A stretch of 64,000 nucleotides of DNA. Origin: Parasphingopyxis algicola (GTDB taxonomy: Bacteria; Pseudomonadota; Alphaproteobacteria; Sphingomonadales; Sphingomonadaceae). The notes under the pieces were generated by a model that was not told where the DNA came from, did no database searches, and was given only the letters and a program-made list of their open reading frames with translations. The DNA lies in NCBI RefSeq assembly GCF_013378075.1, contig NZ_CP051131.1, forward strand, positions 1,116,001 to 1,180,000, in the 5' to 3' direction. This document shows, piece by piece, positions 48,457 through 57,231 of this stretch. A program made the translations under genes and the position numbers. Every line of letters begins with the position of its first letter. Positions within the stretch are counted from its first letter, which is position 1.

Positions 48457-48552
48457 AGGGCAACCTTCTGTTGAAAGAATGTTGCTTTAGCAAGCCGCGC
48501 GCCCGCCCGGAAGGGCCGGAGATGATTTCGGGGCGGGTCCGATTTTCTCCTT

Positions 48553-48636
48553 CGTCACCCCGGACTTGATCCGGAATCCAGGGCGGCAAGTGAATCCGCC
48601 TTTGGCCCTGGACCCCGGATCAAGTCCGGGGTGACG
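48553..48636. repeat. Palindromic repeat, variant of family B
   Basis: CGTCACCCCGGACTTGATCC at the left, GGATCAAGTCCGGGGTGACG at the right: a perfect 20-base stem, with the inner pair GAATCCAGGGC / GCCCTGGAC(C) and a short loop. The outer CGTCA and the order of bases resemble family B with changed middle. Between the ivd start and the transaldolase gene. Confidence 0.9.
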
Positions 48637-48653
48637 AGTCTTTTTTTTGAGCC

Positions 48654-49452: not shown

Positions 49453-51618
49453 GTGACCCGCGTCCGCGTCCTGATCCTCAACGCCGCGCTCGGCCCGCTC
49501 GACTATCGGGTGCCGGGCGGCATGGCCGCGCCGCCGGGCAGCATCGTCAAAGTGCCGCTCGGGCCGCGCCAGGTGACGGGCGTGGTCTGGGACGATGGGC
49601 GGCTGGAGGGCGCGCCGGTCGCGGCGGAGAAGCTGCGGCCGATCCTCGGCGTCTATGACGCACCGCCGATTCCCGAAACGCTGCGCCGGCTGATCGAATG
49701 GACGGCCGACTATTATCTTGCGCCCCTCGCCTCCGTGCTCCGCATGAGCCTTGCGTCCACCAGCGGCTATTCGGGCGAGAAGACGATCACCGAATACCGC
49801 GCCTCGGGCGGAATGCCCGAGCGGATGACGCCGAAGCGCGAACAGGCGCTCGAGCTGATCGGCGACAGCCAAGGCATCATCCGCGAGCTTTCCGAGATCG
49901 GCGAGGTGTCGGTCGGCGTGATTCGGGGGCTGGTGAAGGCGGGCGCGCTCGAACCGGTCGAGGTCTCGCTCGACGCGCCCTTCCCGCTCCCCGATCCCGA
50001 TTTCGGCCCGCCCGAGCTCGAGGAGGGCCAGCAACAGGCCAGCGCGCGGCTCGTCGAAGCGGTCGAGGCGCGCGCGTTCGCGCCGATCATGCTCGACGGC
50101 GTCACGGGATCGGGCAAGACCGAGGTCTATTTCGAAGCCATCGCCGAAGCCTTGCGCATGGGGCGGCAGACGCTCGTGCTGCTCCCCGAGATCGCGCTGA
50201 CCGAGCCGTTCCTGACCCGCTTTACCGCGCGCTTCGGCTGCGAGCCCGTCGCCTGGCATTCGGGGCTGCGCCAGTCCGAACGCCGCCGGGCCTGGCGCGC
50301 CATCGCGACCGGCGAGGCGAAGGTGACGGTCGGCGCGCGCTCCTCGCTCTTTCTCCCCTATCCCAAGCTCGGGCTGATCATCGTCGACGAAGCGCATGAA
50401 AGCGCCTTCAAGCAGGAGGAAGGCGTCATGTACCATGCCCGCGACGTCGCGGTGATGCGTGGGCATTTCGAGAGCTTCCCGATCGTCCTCGCCTCGGCGA
50501 CGCCGGCGATCGAGACCAAGCAGATGGTCGAGATCGGCCGCTATGAAAGCGTCACCCTGCCCGGCCGCTACGGGGCGGCGGAACTGCCCGAGCTTGCCGC
50601 GATCGACATGCTGCAGGACCCGCCGCCGCGCGGCTCCTGGCTCGCGCCGACGCTCGTCCGCGCGGTCGAGGAGACGCTGGCCCGCAAGGAACAGTCGCTG
50701 CTTTTTCTGAATCGCCGCGGCTATGCGCCGCTCACATTGTGCCGCACCTGCGGCCATCGCTTCCAATGCCCGAACTGCACGGCCTGGATGGTCGAGCACC
50801 GGCTGCTTGCCCGCCTCGCCTGCCATCATTGCGGCCATGTCATGCCGCCGCCCGACGAATGCCCGGAATGCGGCGCAGAGGACAGCCTCGTTGCCTGCGG
50901 CCCGGGCGTCGAGCGGATCGCCGACGAGGTCGCCGCGCTGTTTCCCGAGGCGAAGACCGCGATCGTCACCTCCGACACGCTCTGGTCGCCGGCCAAGGCC
51001 GCCGAGTTCGTCCACCGGATGGAGGCCGGCGATATCGATATCGTCATCGGCACGCAGCTGGTGACGAAAGGCTATCATTTTCCGAACCTGACTCTGGTCG
51101 GCGTCGTCGATGCCGATCTCGGGTTGCAGGGCGGCGACCTGCGCGCGGCCGAACGCACCTTTCAGCAGATCATGCAGGTTTCGGGGCGCGCCGGGCGCGG
51201 CGACAAGCCGGGCCGCGTCTTCATCCAGACCCACGAGCCGACCGCGCCGGTCATCGAGGCGCTGGTGTCGGGCGACGCGGAGAGCTTCTACGAAACCGAG
51301 ACCGAGGCCCGGCGCTTCGCCGGAGCGCCGCCCTTCGGCCGCTATGCCGGGATCGTCATCTCCTCGGAGGACGAGAAGGAAGCGTTCGAGACTGCGCGGG
51401 TCATCGGCCAGACCGCGCCCAAGGTCGAGGGCATGATGGTCCTCGGCCCCGCCCCCGCCCCGCTCGCCATGCTGCGCGGCCGCCACCGCCAGCGCCTCCT
51501 CGTCCATGCCCGCCGCGCGCTCGACGTGCAGAGCGTGATCCGCGACTGGCTGGGCGAGCGGGACTGGCCGAAAGGCGTGCGTGTTACCGTGGATGTCGAT
51601 CCGTATTCCTTCCTCTAG
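49453..51618 (+). CDS. priA: Primosomal protein N' (replication restart helicase PriA)
   Basis: 3'-5' helicase that restarts stalled forks (721 residues). N-terminal DNA-binding region (about 1-110, [19 protein letters not shown]), helicase core with Walker [13 protein letters not shown] (about 215-226), DEAH in [14 protein letters not shown], zinc-binding cysteines [13 protein letters not shown] and [18 protein letters not shown], and a C-terminal domain ending VDVDPYSFL. Start GTG is the conserved start. The last 177 bases (51442-51618) are repeated at 52641-52817, around a foreign-looking gene. Confidence 0.96.
51442..51618 (+). repeat. 3' end of priA, copy 1 of a 177-base duplication
   Basis: The last 59 codons of priA including stop. 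The second copy (52641-52817) has exactly the same length and stays aligned without gaps. 77 bases in a row (51475-51551) are identical; the remaining differences are mostly at synonymous sites, with Glu to Asp and the first few residues as the main protein changes. Confidence 0.93.
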
Positions 51619-51673
51619 CGCCAGCAGTCCGCTCTGGTGCGTCGGGTCAGCGCATCGATATCTCGGCCGAGAT

Positions 51674-52579
51674 TTAGTCGCGCTCGAAGAAGTGGCGGAA
51701 GAACTTCGCGTGACGAGCCTTGTAGGGCTCCAAGATGCGCCGGGCTTCCTCGCGGTCGCCGAACCAATATTGGCAGAAGGCGGTCTTGCCGATCGTCGCG
51801 TCGGGGAACTGGCGGCCTATCACCGTGCACTGCTGTTCAAGGGAAGCTTCCATGCGTTCGATGCGCTCGATGCGCTCTTCGAGCGTGAAGTCGTCGGTGA
51901 CGATCTTGGTCTGCAAATCGTCGGGGATCGGATCGACGATCTTGAAGTAAAGCGAACCGTCGGCGATTTGCCGAATAACGCGGACGTAAGGCAGGATCAG
52001 TTCAAGCCCGTAGGTGAGCCAGGGCAGAGTGATCGATTTGAAATCCTGGTGAATGAGGATGGTCGAGCCGGGGATGTAGTGTCGCGCGATGATGGCCCAG
52101 GTGCGCTTCCAAACCTCGAGCGTTTTAGCGATGTCGATGTGGCCGATCTCTATCGGGCGGCCGATCCATTCGATCTCGCAAATGTCGCCCGCGTAAAGAT
52201 TGATGAGGCTGCGATAACGGTCGACGACTTTCTCAAAGACGCAGATGTCCTCTTTGATCGGACCGCCGAGAATCTGGGTGACGAGGTCGGCGTCAAAGAT
52301 GCGTTTGGCGTTGTCTTCACCGAACATACCGAAAGCGTGGATGCGGGCGATCTTCTCGGCGTGAGAGAGACGCTTGTTTCTCTCCAGACCCATGCCGAGG
52401 AGATAGGTGCTGCCGCCCAGGAACGTGCCAAAGTCGACAATCTCCCCAACACCAGTGAATTCATGCTGCGCAACGTTCACCAGAAACGAGCGCTCGATCT
52501 CGGTCGTCTGCGAGAGCGTAGCGAGATCCGCCGGATCGGGTATGCTGCTGTAACTGGACGGGAAATCGATCGTGTGCAT
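51674..52579 (-). CDS. Class I SAM-dependent methyltransferase-like protein (sugar-biosynthesis type)
   Basis: Protein of 301 residues with a Rossmann-like SAM site: IVDFGTFLGGSTYL (about 47-60) fits the glycine-rich motif I. HIDIAKT (about 147-153) and ILIHQDF (about 174-180) resemble a family of TylF/cephalosporin hydroxylase-like proteins often coded next to glycosyltransferases. The C-terminal part (about 230-301) is helical and rich in charge. GC is about 50-60% against 65-78% in priA, which suggests transfer. Start ATG with AGAGG upstream. It is on the strand opposite to priA and lies between the two copies of the priA 3' end. Target unknown. Confidence 0.75.
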   Translation of the reverse strand: MHTIDFPSSYSSIPDPADLATLSQTTEIERSFLVNVAQHEFTGVGEIVDFGTFLGGSTYLLGMGLERNKRLSHAEKIARIHAFGMFGEDNAKRIFDADLVTQILGGPIKEDICVFEKVVDRYRSLINLYAGDICEIEWIGRPIEIGHIDIAKTLEVWKRTWAIIARHYIPGSTILIHQDFKSITLPWLTYGLELILPYVRVIRQIADGSLYFKIVDPIPDDLQTKIVTDDFTLEERIERIERMEASLEQQCTVIGRQFPDATIGKTAFCQYWFGDREEARRILEPYKARHAKFFRHFFERD

Positions 52580-52640
52580 CGCGCTACCTCTTCTCAAAAA
52601 TGCCTCAATAGGGAGAAGCCTGGCGAATGGCTACATCCGG

Positions 52641-52817
52641 CTCGGCCAAGTTCCCGCGCCGCTCGCGATGCTCCGCGGCCGCCACCGCCAGCGCCTCCTC
52701 GTCCATGCCCGCCGCGCGCTCGACGTGCAGAGCGTGATCCGCGACTGGCTTGGCGACCGAGACTGGCCGAAAGGCGTGCGTGTGACCGTGGATGTCGATC
52801 CCTACAGTTTTCTTTGA
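52641..52817 (+). pseudogene. Displaced copy of the priA 3' end
   Basis: Second copy of the 177-base end of priA, ending with TGA instead of TAG. It codes the same C-terminus (PAPLAMLRG to DVDPYSFL) with one Glu/Asp change in the WLG-(E/D)-RDW segment. It has no start of its own and is not part of a full gene; the open frame before it (from 52572) is chance. The many silent differences show that this copy diverged while under selection for protein sequence, so it is not simply a fresh tandem duplicate. Confidence 0.88.
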
Positions 52818-52869
52818 ATGCGATAATCAAGCGCGTTGCCGCGAAAACGGCGCGTTGATAGTAAAAGCC

Positions 52870-54606
52870 ATGCGGTTTCTGATCTTTATCGCGGCAACGC
52901 TGCTCATAGTCGCACCAGCCGATGCCCGGTGGCGCCGCGGGGAATCGACGAACTTCATCGTCTATGCCGAATTTTCAGAATCGCGCATGCGCGAATATGT
53001 TGCCGAGCTGGAGCGTTTCGATGGGCTTTTGCGGCGTTTCAGCGGTCTGGAAACAGTGCAATCCCTGAACAAGCTGCGGATATTCGTCGTCCGCAACCAG
53101 GGGCGGATTTCGCGCTATCTGGACGGGAATATGCGGGTCGGCGGCATCTATTTTTCCGATCCGCGCGGGCCTTACGCCATCGTCCCGCGGCGAAGCGCCG
53201 GCTATGGCCGGTTTCGCGTGACCGGCCAGAATGTTCTGTTTCACGAATATACGCACCATTTCATGATGCAGTATTTCCCGACCAGCTACCCGGCCTGGTA
53301 TGTCGAGGGCTTCGCCGAATTCTACTCGACCATCCGCTTTCGCGACGACGATGAGGTGGAATTGGGATTCCCGGCGCGGGACAATGTCCCTTGGCTGCGC
53401 CTCTTTCCCTGGATTCCCCACGAAACCCTGCTTTCCAACAGGCTGCGCAACAATCGCATGACTTATGCGCAGGGATGGCTGCTCGTCCATCACGCCGCAT
53501 TTCATCGCGAAACGCGCGAAGCCTTGAACGGCTATTTGCGGGCGATCAGCGACGGTATCGAGCCGAGCGAAGCCTATAGCCGGAATTTCGGTGACTGGGA
53601 TCCCGGTCTCGACGAGATTCTGACCGCTTATGGAACGGGACGGCGAATTCCCGTCCTTCGCCTCGTCCTCGATCTGCCTCCGAGCGGCCCCGTCGAAATC
53701 GAGGAGCTGACCGACGACGAAGCCGCTATCGCTCTTCTGTACGCGCGCGAAGGAGAGCAGCTTAACGACCGCGTCGAAGACCTGCTCGAAGAATATCCCG
53801 ATGTGCCTCAACTGCATGTCGAAGCCGCGATCTCGGCCATCGCGCGTCAGGATTATACGACTGCGATCGAAGCGGCCGATACGGCGCTGGCGATCGATGC
53901 CGACCATGTCGAGGCCAACATCTACAAGGGCGTCGCGACGCTTTTGTCGATCACCGCCCAAGCGAGCGATGACGATACCGCAACAGCTGAATCGGAGGAC
54001 ACAGGCGAGGAGTCCGCCGACGGGGCCGAATTCGACGTCACGGCATTCTTCGGATTCGATGCCGGGGAAGAGCTGGCCGCCGACCCCCGCTGGGAGCAAG
54101 CGCGCGGCCATTTCATCCGGGCCAACAATGCCGACCACAACAATGCATTGGCCCTGCTCTATTATTATCTGTCCTACCCGGATCGCGAAGACCGGCCCGA
54201 CGATGCCATGGCGGCGCTCAATCAGGCCTATCAGTTCGTGCCGCAATCGCCGATCATCAGACTGCTTCTCGGTCGCGAAATGCTCGAGGACGGACGCTTC
54301 GAAGAAGCCGGTGCGATCGTCCGGCCGGTGGCGCAGGATCCGCACCAATCCGGCAGCCGGATCATGGCGTTGCTGATCCAGGAACTTGGCGCCCGCGAAG
54401 CCGGGTTCGATCAGGCCAGTGCCATTCTGGAAGAGCTCCGGGCCGAAGCCGAAGCTGCCGAGGCTGCGGATGCGGAAGCCGAATCCCAAGTGGCCGCGGC
54501 GGCCGAAGAGGAAGCGCCGGAAGTGGGAGACGAGACCGATACTGTGGACGATCCGGTCGCAGGGGCTGTCGACAGTCCGGCAACGGAAAACGATCCAGAG
54601 CGGTAG
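52870..54606 (+). CDS. Secreted HEXXH metallopeptidase-like protein with TPR region (paralog 1)
   Basis: Exported protein of 578 residues. Signal peptide MRFLIFIAATLLIVAPADA; peptidase-like domain about 20-270 with FHEYTHHF (His125-Glu126...His129) and downstream WYVEGFAEF (Glu146 as likely third zinc ligand), a gluzincin pattern of the DUF1570 kind; then TPR-like helices (about 300-510: HVEAAISAIARQDYTTAIEAADTALAIDADHVEANIYKG); and an acidic Ala/Glu-rich low-complexity tail. Paralog of the following gene with the same HEXXH and Glu positions. Start ATG has only a weak ribosome site. Substrate unknown. Confidence 0.82.
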   Translation: MRFLIFIAATLLIVAPADARWRRGESTNFIVYAEFSESRMREYVAELERFDGLLRRFSGLETVQSLNKLRIFVVRNQGRISRYLDGNMRVGGIYFSDPRGPYAIVPRRSAGYGRFRVTGQNVLFHEYTHHFMMQYFPTSYPAWYVEGFAEFYSTIRFRDDDEVELGFPARDNVPWLRLFPWIPHETLLSNRLRNNRMTYAQGWLLVHHAAFHRETREALNGYLRAISDGIEPSEAYSRNFGDWDPGLDEILTAYGTGRRIPVLRLVLDLPPSGPVEIEELTDDEAAIALLYAREGEQLNDRVEDLLEEYPDVPQLHVEAAISAIARQDYTTAIEAADTALAIDADHVEANIYKGVATLLSITAQASDDDTATAESEDTGEESADGAEFDVTAFFGFDAGEELAADPRWEQARGHFIRANNADHNNALALLYYYLSYPDREDRPDDAMAALNQAYQFVPQSPIIRLLLGREMLEDGRFEEAGAIVRPVAQDPHQSGSRIMALLIQELGAREAGFDQASAILEELRAEAEAAEAADAEAESQVAAAAEEEAPEVGDETDTVDDPVAGAVDSPATENDPER

Positions 54607-54696
54607 ACCCGGCCCCGCATCGCGCGAGCGCTACCGACGAATAAGCTGACATCGCAGCGTTTTGCAGCTATCTGAACCGGGGAGGCAATCGGGCGG

Positions 54697-56181
54697 ATGA
54701 TGCGCTGGATCGGTGTTCTTATCGCGACGCTGTGCATACCCGCGGCTGTTGACGCTGCATGGCACCGGGCCGAGTCCGATCATTTCATCATATATGCCGA
54801 GCTGAGCGAGGATGAGATCCGCGAGCGCGCGATCGAACTGGAAAGCCTCGACCGAGTGATGCGAGCCATGACCGGCACGCCGGAACAAGCCGCAGAGGTC
54901 AAACTGCGCGTATACATGGTGACAAACTACAACGCCGTCGTCCGCTATCATGGCGGCGGAGACGTGGCCGGCTTTTACAATCCTTCGATGCGCGGTCCCT
55001 TTGCTGTGGTCCCGCGGCGCAATGTCAGTTCGGGCACGTTGGGCATGACGGCCAACCATGTGCTGTTCCATGAATATGCGCATCATTTCATGTATCAATA
55101 TGCGCCGTCCACCTATCCCAGCTGGTATGTCGAAGGCTTTGCGGAGCTCTTCGCGACGGCCGAAATCCGGGACGATGGCTGGGTTGAGATCGGCCGCCCC
55201 TTGCCCCGTGGGGTAGCATCTTTCCAATGGGGCCGCCGGCTCCGCTATGCGGACATATTGTCCAACGCCCAGCCGAACGCGAACATGACCTATGTACAGG
55301 GCTGGATACTCGTCCATTACGCCGCGTTCGACAGCGAGGCAGGCGCGCTGCTGAACCGGTATCTGCAGGCGCTCGCGCAAGGCACAAGCGGATCCGAAGC
55401 CTATGCGGCCACGTTCGGGCGGCTTGACGAACCTTTGGACCGGACGCTCCGGGACTATGGCCTCGGGCGGCGGGTGCCGGGCATCGCCCGGCGGATCGAA
55501 CCGATCGATCCGTCCACCATCACGATCACGGAGCTGTCCGAGGTCCAGGCCGAGATCGCGATGCTCTTCCCGCGCAATCCCGATCGGCTCGAGCGGCAGG
55601 TCAGACGGGCCGTCGAACGCTATCCGAACGAAGCGCAGGCGCATGTCGAACTCGCCAGGTCTCTGGAAGCCGACGAGGACATGGAGGCGGCCATGCGGGC
55701 GATCGACCGCGCGTTGCAACTCGATCCGGATCACGTCGAAGCCAACAATATGAAGGGCGATCAGCTGATCATGGCCGCGCGCGCGACCGATGACGCGGAC
55801 GACCCCAACTGGGAATTGGCGCGGCAGCACTATCTGCGCGCCAACCGGTCCGATCCGCGGAACGCGCGCGCCTTGCACGGCTATTTTGATTCCTATCCGG
55901 ACCCGCAAGACCGGCCTGATAACGCCATGGCTGCCCTGGAATCCGCCTTTTTGCTAGTTCCGCAGAACGCGCATTTGCGGATCGATCTGGCACGGGCCTA
56001 TCTGGATCGCGGCGAATATCGTGACGCGCTCGACGCGATCATGCCGGTGGTCCAAACCCCGCACGTGGAACCCGGCGACGAAATCGTTCAGATCGCGGAT
56101 GCTGCGCGCCGAGGCTTGGCGGTAGATTCCGGCACAGGCGCGTCGAACGCTGAGGAAACAGCCCTCGAAGCGACAGAATAG
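54697..56181 (+). CDS. Secreted HEXXH metallopeptidase-like protein with TPR region (paralog 2)
   Basis: Exported protein of 494 residues, paralog of the gene 90 bases upstream. Signal peptide MRWIGVLIATLCIPAAVDA; FHEYAHHF with His125, Glu126, His129 and WYVEGFAEL with Glu146, all at exactly the same positions as in paralog 1; then TPR-like repeats (AQAHVELARSLEADEDMEAAMRAIDRALQLDPDHVEANNMKG). It lacks the long acidic tail of paralog 1. Likely a zinc peptidase or a peptidase-fold protein of the periplasm or outside; partners unknown. Confidence 0.82.
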   Translation: MMRWIGVLIATLCIPAAVDAAWHRAESDHFIIYAELSEDEIRERAIELESLDRVMRAMTGTPEQAAEVKLRVYMVTNYNAVVRYHGGGDVAGFYNPSMRGPFAVVPRRNVSSGTLGMTANHVLFHEYAHHFMYQYAPSTYPSWYVEGFAELFATAEIRDDGWVEIGRPLPRGVASFQWGRRLRYADILSNAQPNANMTYVQGWILVHYAAFDSEAGALLNRYLQALAQGTSGSEAYAATFGRLDEPLDRTLRDYGLGRRVPGIARRIEPIDPSTITITELSEVQAEIAMLFPRNPDRLERQVRRAVERYPNEAQAHVELARSLEADEDMEAAMRAIDRALQLDPDHVEANNMKGDQLIMAARATDDADDPNWELARQHYLRANRSDPRNARALHGYFDSYPDPQDRPDNAMAALESAFLLVPQNAHLRIDLARAYLDRGEYRDALDAIMPVVQTPHVEPGDEIVQIADAARRGLAVDSGTGASNAEETALEATE

Positions 56182-56184
56182 CGC

Positions 56185-57231
56185 CTAGCTCCGCCCCGCC
56201 CGCTCGCGTTCCAACAGCGCTTCCTTCCGTTTCAGCCCGTAGGCATAGCCGCCGAGCGAGCCGTCGGTGCGGATGACGCGGTGGCAGGGGATGAGGACGG
56301 CGACATTGTTCGCGCCGTTCGCGCTGCCCGCTGCGCGCACCGCCTTGGGCTTGCCGACCGCGGCGGCGATTTCGGCATAGGTCCGGGTCTCGCCGGGCGG
56401 GATGCGGGTCAGTTCGCGCCAGACCGCTTCCTGGAAGGCCGTACCCTGGACGTCGAGCGACAGGCCGTGCGGCCGTGCCGGATCGTCGACCGCCGCGACC
56501 GTACGCGCGACCAGATCGGCCATGTCGCCGTTCGCCGGAACGATCTCGGCGTTGGGGAAACGCTCGCGCAACGCCGCTTCGTCCTCGTCGAAGCTCAGCC
56601 GGCAGATGCCGCGCTCGGTGGCGGCGACGAGCATGTCGCCGAGGCTCGTCTCGGCGATCGCCCAGTGGATCGTCACGCCCTCCCCGCCCTTGCGCCAGGC
56701 CGACGGGGTCATGCCGAGCCGCTTGCCGGTTTCGGCATAGAAACGGCCCGGCCCCGAATAGCCGGCCTCGTAGATCGCATCGGTCACCCGGTCCTCGGTA
56801 TCGAGCGCCCGTTCGGCGCGGTCGGCGCGGAGCCGCCGCGCGTAGGCGGCCGGCGTCACGCCCGTCGCCCGGCGGAAGACGCGCAGGAAATGGGTGGGCG
56901 AATAGCCGACTTGCGCCGCGACCTGATCGAGCTTCGGCGCTTCTTCCGCCGCCGCGATCAGCGCGACCGCTTCGGCGACCGCCGCCTCGTCGCGCGACAC
57001 TTCGTCGGGCTTGCAGCGCTTGCAGGGCCTGAGGCCCGCTTCGCGCGCCTCGTTTCCGGTCGCGAAGAAGCGGACATTGCCACGCTTGGGATGGCGGGCG
57101 GCGCAGGACGGCCGGCAATAGATGCCCGTCGTCAGCACGCCGGTCACGAAGCGGCCGTCGAAACTGCGATCGCGCGCCTGCACGGCCCGCCAGGCGAGAT
57201 CGGGGTCTATGGATGTGATTTGCTGTGTCAT
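56185..57231 (-). CDS. ada: Bifunctional Ada protein (alkyl-DNA repair and regulator)
   Basis: Adaptive response protein of 348 residues: N-terminal Ada zinc domain with GIYCRPSCAARHPKRGNVRFF and LRPCKRCKPD (about 36-95; Cys accepting methyl from phosphotriesters), AraC-type helix-turn-helix (about 100-180, VGYSPTHFLRVFRRATGVTPAAYARR), and C-terminal O6-methylguanine methyltransferase with the acceptor Cys in LIPCHRVIR (about 310-318). Domain order and length match Ada. It is self-induced in other bacteria. Convergent with the metallopeptidase gene. Confidence 0.95.
   Translation of the reverse strand: MTQQITSIDPDLAWRAVQARDRSFDGRFVTGVLTTGIYCRPSCAARHPKRGNVRFFATGNEAREAGLRPCKRCKPDEVSRDEAAVAEAVALIAAAEEAPKLDQVAAQVGYSPTHFLRVFRRATGVTPAAYARRLRADRAERALDTEDRVTDAIYEAGYSGPGRFYAETGKRLGMTPSAWRKGGEGVTIHWAIAETSLGDMLVAATERGICRLSFDEDEAALRERFPNAEIVPANGDMADLVARTVAAVDDPARPHGLSLDVQGTAFQEAVWRELTRIPPGETRTYAEIAAAVGKPKAVRAAGSANGANNVAVLIPCHRVIRTDGSLGGYAYGLKRKEALLERERAGRS

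Follow-up and report, generated by a model that had tools for sequence, protein, structure and literature searches.

The end of priA in Parasphingopyxis algicola raises a question of origin: how did the last 177 bp of a housekeeping gene come to stand twice on the chromosome, with one gene on the opposite strand between the two copies? Most single-gene additions to bacterial chromosomes leave no trace of their arrival; where a displaced gene end stands beside a foreign twin, the acquisition has left a scar that can be read. The window analyzed here is the whole stretch of 64,000 nucleotides (contig NZ_CP051131.1, positions 1,116,001 to 1,180,000), and all coordinates are positions in it. The locus contains the following features, in which G007 denotes the sister genome of the same genus:

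49453..51618, plus strand: priA (primosomal helicase), intact, 721 aa, with Pfam domains PriA_3primeBD, PriA_C and DEAD; the last ∼35 bp are of foreign type
51442..51618, plus strand: copy 1, the functional priA 3' end; by sequence comparison 51442-51561 is G007-like and 51585-51618 is a foreign-like tail, ending TATTCCTTCCTCTAG
51562..51584, plus strand: 23-bp identical stretch GACTGGCCGAAAGGCGTGCGTGT in which the allele pattern switches in the comparison; putative crossover interval, partner 52761-52783
51619..52640, no strand: inserted DNA of 57.5% GC that searches of the other genus members did not recover
51674..52579, minus strand: putative class I SAM-dependent methyltransferase gene, 301 aa, ATG start, Methyltransf_24-like (profile match below the curated cut-off)
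52641..52817, plus strand: copy 2, the displaced priA 3' end; by sequence comparison its tail CAGTTTTCTTTGA is of the native genus type
52867..54606, plus strand: TPR-containing HExxH-type putative peptidase 1, in the family often adjoining priA
54697..56181, plus strand: TPR-containing HExxH-type putative peptidase 2, paralogue of putative peptidase 1
56185..57231, minus strand: ada-type methylated-DNA repair gene (named from sequence; ORF and neighborhood comparison), the conserved far edge of the variable interval

The two priA ends (51442-51618 and 52641-52817) aligned over 177 bp with no gap, with 157 identical positions and 20 differences. The longest identical run was 77 bp (51475-51551), and equal length and run agree with what an earlier sequence-only reading had described. 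The pair is the top direct repeat of the window (164 bp at 93%; BLAST E about 3e-61), and no further copy of the priA end was found elsewhere in the P. algicola genome, which is complete in a single 3.67-Mb contig. Fifteen codons differ between the copies and 12 of these changes are silent, which bears out the mainly synonymous changes reported before; of the remaining three, P/Q and A/V lie directly at the left junction and E/D at codon 39. At the left edge of copy 2 true homology may start only near 52653, and the first seven bases (52641-52647, CTCGGCC) could be a junction microhomology, which is followed by 4 mismatches.

The segment between the copies (51619-52640) contains a single supported ORF, the methyltransferase gene (51674-52579), on the minus strand as first read. 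No integrase, insertion sequence or tRNA was found in this segment, in line with the earlier remark that an integrase is absent. The GC content is 57% in the methyltransferase ORF and 57.5% in the insert, against 69% in priA and 61-62% in the two downstream genes. The low GC of the gene noted previously therefore stands, and the contrast of 55% against 65-78% given with it was too large, since the downstream genes lie closer to the insert.

Comparison with the genus revealed empty sites in relatives, which the earlier reading had proposed to look for. A single priA end is present in seven genus-mates (G001, G002, G003, G004, G007, G008 and G009), while G005 was unclear and G006 incomplete. In the sister G007, whose priA is 90% identical and whose PriA protein is 96% identical to that of the window, there is one priA end, no insert and another gene behind. 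The P. algicola methyltransferase was not found in other Parasphingopyxis genomes, some of which carry only remote homologs (26-31%) elsewhere, and, as to the refuting case of relatives having this gene but no second priA end, no relative carried it above 32% identity. The draft Parasphingopyxis bin G005 holds two differing priA ends on contigs C485 (L043/L300) and C118 (L044), one of which precedes a TPR peptidase and ada; either a further displaced end or a mixture of strains would account for this.

Across the family, priA and the ada-type gene are common neighbors, and the interval between them is variable. It is empty in G001. In G007 it consists of an NRAMP-like transporter gene; G004 has such a transporter and two TPR peptidases, G009 an NRAMP-like transporter and a TPR peptidase, and G002 a dehydrogenase-like gene, a TPR peptidase and a transporter (transporter and dehydrogenase names were read from sequence). 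In P. algicola it holds the methyltransferase and two TPR peptidases. Because the contents of this interval vary among genus-mates, the insert was taken as 51619-52640 together with the tail of copy 1.

The tails of the two copies differ in type. That of copy 2 resembles the genus relatives (CAGT..TTT..TGA), and that of copy 1 (TAT TCC TTC CTC TAG) encodes the same residues as the genus-type end in other codons. Relative to all genus members, copy 1 shows a switch of serine codon family from AGT/AGC to TCC and a different stop codon; a TCN codon occurs otherwise only in G002, and the combination of Ser TCC with stop TAG is rare among sphingomonad priA ends (3 of 165). Over the tail (positions 144-177 of the repeat) 10 of 34 sites differ between copy 1 and G007 and 3 of 34 between copy 2 and G007, where the average difference is 10%. 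Searches at the protein and DNA level found no donor genome, and the term foreign therefore rests on comparison with relatives.

As to which copy is closer to relatives, which had been raised as a check, the answer is divided. In the left part (positions 8-120) G007 carries the allele of copy 1 at 10 of 10 differing sites, and in the right part it carries that of copy 2 at 8 of 9 informative sites. For these 19 sites and one sister genome the partition had a Fisher p of 0.0001, and of 0.001 when the four junction sites were removed and six clearly homologous left sites were kept. The switch falls in 51562-51584. All six differences within positions 13-120 are at third codon positions and five are silent (p about 0.001 under neutrality), and both alleles therefore appear to come from working priA genes.

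On balance we favor an integrase-free, homologous acquisition of the gene, most likely via a single crossover. A DNA fragment of a related bacterium, consisting of its priA end and the methyltransferase gene behind it, would have reached the P. algicola lineage and been integrated into its chromosome through homologous recombination within the priA end. The simplest course would be one crossover within 51562-51584 with a circularized or tandem molecule, presumably dependent on RecA. The product would contain, in this order, copy 1 with the resident left part and the donor tail, the cargo gene, and copy 2 with the donor left part and the resident tail, and such reciprocal hybrids fit the observed allele partition. 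Since the donor tail specifies unchanged residues, priA would remain intact, and a recombinase encoded by an element would not be needed. A cargo gene added by recombination at the priA end, with ends from different lineages, had been put forward before, and it gains support from the absence of the gene in genus-mates, the foreign tail of copy 1 and the native tail of copy 2. Against a single crossover, the 23-bp identical stretch is short for RecA, though similarity over the flanking 177 bp is about 89%.

The left part of copy 2 bears on a second course. It differs from G007 at 11 of 108 positions, which is the ordinary divergence of 10%. As it is no more distant than average, copy 2 is possibly wholly resident and copy 1 wholly donor, as in one-sided recombination. 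Under homology-facilitated illegitimate recombination of a linear fragment, the donor priA end would have paired with the resident priA, and microhomology would have linked the far end to a point upstream of the resident 3' end, the present copy 2. Such a course, for which the CTCGGCC at the left edge of copy 2 is a possible 7-bp microhomology, was proposed earlier for Vibrio T6SS loci with displaced 3' ends (PMC5361080), and the differences of both parts of copy 2 to G007 (11/108 and 3/34) are ordinary, so that all of copy 2 could be resident. However, the described products of this process usually, though not obligatorily, delete recipient DNA (PMC3240628), whereas P. algicola has a duplication with the resident end kept as copy 2. 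Further, G007 has the left alleles of copy 1 at all sites, so that a donor closer to G007 than P. algicola itself would be needed. We consider the linear-fragment course quite unlikely.

An old duplication of the priA end within the lineage, followed by independent drift and partial gene conversion, is highly improbable. It would correspond to the pattern of a long direct repeat around an inserted gene, named insertion with long target duplication in Helicobacter pylori (Nobusato et al., 2000, cited in PMC3031569 and PMC1643837), where few genes, often of restriction-modification systems, lie between long direct repeats of the target with no transposase. In P. algicola a long direct repeat of the target likewise flanks the insert and is absent from relatives, and the 77-bp identical block could be the result of conversion. 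In that model, both repeats reportedly derive from the recipient. In P. algicola, by contrast, one tail appears to be foreign, with the switched Ser codon family and different stop in copy 1 while copy 2 keeps the old tail, and the left-part changes in the non-functional copy are on third positions only. The cargo, too, differs from the H. pylori pattern, as profile search did not identify it as a restriction-modification gene. Nor are the copies the product of one recent tandem duplication in this strain, which the sequence-only reading had named as a refuting case.

Returning to the acquisition by homologous recombination, parallel cases were sought in other sphingomonads with the 64 C-terminal PriA residues as query. 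The search covered 398 family genomes and 295 genomes of the genus of Sphingomonas oligophenolica, two sets that overlap by about ten, and 80 named priA loci were examined in addition; about 680 genomes were surveyed. The search addressed priA ends only and makes no claim of enrichment at priA over other gene ends. Three further clear displaced priA ends were found, in G326, S. oligophenolica S5.1 and Sphingomonas G629, each flanking a TPR-peptidase gene, so that other cargo between priA ends, which had been named as something to look for, does occur. In G326 (L104), of another genus, priA is followed by a TPR peptidase of 504 aa and then by a second occurrence of its last 67 bp (92.5%). S. 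oligophenolica S5.1 (L255) has priA, a TPR peptidase and a decayed 243-bp copy with indels. In G629 (L296) priA and a TPR-peptidase gene are followed by a copy of 171 bp whose frame is open and which is identical over a run of 78 bp. In all four cases the gene end and its displaced copy are collinear; the copy reaches the stop codon in three, its end being decayed in S. oligophenolica. Reading of the sequences between and beside the repeats in G326, S5.1 and G629, as opposed to a profile search, recognized no recombinase. Among species related to G629, L261 and L253 have the TPR peptidase but no displaced end, and L260 lacks the peptidase. Copy 1 of G629 matches relatives over its whole length, and the history of this locus is therefore possibly different from that of P. 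algicola. When the DNA behind all TPR peptidases was searched for decayed priA ends, the three known cases alone came up.

The scar in three other sphingomonads suggests that homologous recombination anchored in priA can add genes without a dedicated mobile element. The type of event is already known, and its recurrence at one housekeeping gene in four lineages is the point of interest: the four cases make it testable whether a conserved gene end can serve as an anchor for between-species gene uptake.

Several other second matches were rejected. The second match in G632 comes from two contigs with the same downstream gene and reflects a strain mixture in a metagenome bin. Those in G027, G029, G062, G073, G080, G090, G111, G163, G205, G239 and G302 were weak matches elsewhere or a second priA-like contig, and the match in L252 was noise beside simple repeats. 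In G047 (L105, L106) an exact 55-bp contig overlap at the priA stop is an assembly break and does not demonstrate a duplication. The assembly graph of G047 branches precisely at the priA stop; one possible cause is a population in which some members have an insert and others lack it. The record L220 (QDFQ01000003.1), titled 'Arthrobacter sp. TPD3018', has a sphingomonad priA inside (74% identical) and is probably misnamed. The direct repeats of L117 and L124 lie between genes and are palindromic, REP-like sequences instead of gene ends. A similar REP-like palindrome lies between two genes of the window at 48552-48637; it is an inverted repeat of 33 bp, near-perfect (94%), around a loop of 20 bp.

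The same gene end hit in four lineages is also what a site-specific integrative element targeting the priA 3' end would produce. The insert would then be a remnant or non-autonomous cargo, the copies would be attL and attR with a 23-bp core, and the integrase would be lost or supplied in trans. The attL/attR geometry, the replacement 3' end, the short identical core and the empty sites in relatives agree with such an element. Protein-gene 3' ends used by tyrosine-recombinase islands include those of guaA and prfC. Genomic islands also integrate at the 3' end of trmE by tyrosine recombinases (PMC7449626), and in these islands, too, a replacement 3' end keeps the host gene intact and the old end is displaced. 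The P. algicola insert, on the other hand, has no integrase and spans 1.2 kb only, and, left of the core, its repeat continues through more than 100 bp of priA under coding constraint. This left part of copy 2, with changes at third positions only, looks like a piece of a working priA and unlike an attP arm. Further points against an element are the repeat lengths, which range from 67 to 243 bp, and the lack of a recombinase in the segment or, as far as recognized by reading, at the other three cases; a literature search surfaced no paper on priA as an integrase target. We regard this explanation as unlikely, and the minimal integrative element suggested at the outset was not upheld.

The closest known parallel to a single crossover comes from Escherichia coli, where linear DNA with gene-end homology mostly gave single-crossover products of circularized molecules (Amarir-Bouhram et al., 2011; PMC3240628). 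The duplication product was detected by PCR in 56 of 60 clones, with 109-950 bp duplicated in the 14 that were sequenced (PMC3240628). Both there and in P. algicola there is one homology region, the whole fragment enters and a gene end is duplicated, over about 100-950 bp in E. coli and 177 bp in P. algicola. The P. algicola case differs in that the event was natural, took place between species and hit a housekeeping gene, and in that we infer the circular intermediate. In T6SS effector-immunity arrays and Rhs loci of Vibrio cholerae (PMC5361080), a homologous part of the gene similarly anchors new DNA and the old 3' end is left downstream as a fragment. There, however, the variable end is exchanged and the effector changes, whereas the PriA end of P. 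algicola remains the same protein and only the neighboring gene is new.

A broader version of the favored reading would make the priA end of sphingomonads a standing, integrase-free docking site, at which fragments of 'priA end plus next gene' pass from species to species through homologous recombination. In this way priA would anchor the turnover of methyltransferase, TPR peptidases and transporter in the priA-ada interval, like a cassette slot that has no recombinase. We put this forward tentatively and think it has a small chance of being correct. In many sphingomonads the priA-ada interval contains TPR/HExxH putative peptidases (loci including L152, L156, L169 and L253), and at least one was located within 8 kb of priA in 46 of 175 loci. 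They are often in tandem, with two in P. algicola (52867-56181) and three in Sphingomonas sp. HITSZ_GF (L253).

The cargo gene, whose expression we presume, was characterized by its homologs. Its protein matched Pfam Methyltransf_24 at 20.2 bits, below the curated cut-off of 26.3, and all six homologs matched this family below E 0.01 (best 4.7e-7). Motif I (DFGTFLGGST) and the GD, PIE and QD residues are conserved in the six homologs; the five relatives (22-26% identity over an alignment) share motif I as G-x-F-x-G-x-S/T, GD, P-I/V-E and QD. A profile of the six homologs gave weak matches in the PDB to SAM-dependent O-methyltransferases over motif I (2hnk, 6g7d; E 0.005-0.008). No match was obtained in NCBIfam, PADLOC, PHROGs, phages or viral contigs, and an AlphaFold model from the single sequence had a mean pLDDT of 38.7 and was not usable. 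Relatives are scarce, being found in 6 of 299 family genomes (including P. algicola) and 3 of 385 in the class, with best identities of 26-32%. Nothing suggests a role in DNA methylation or defense. Relatives borne on plasmids sit at glycosyltransferase annotations, and in L031 and L032 further methyltransferase-like ORFs follow; the protein likely methylates a surface glycan or a small metabolite.
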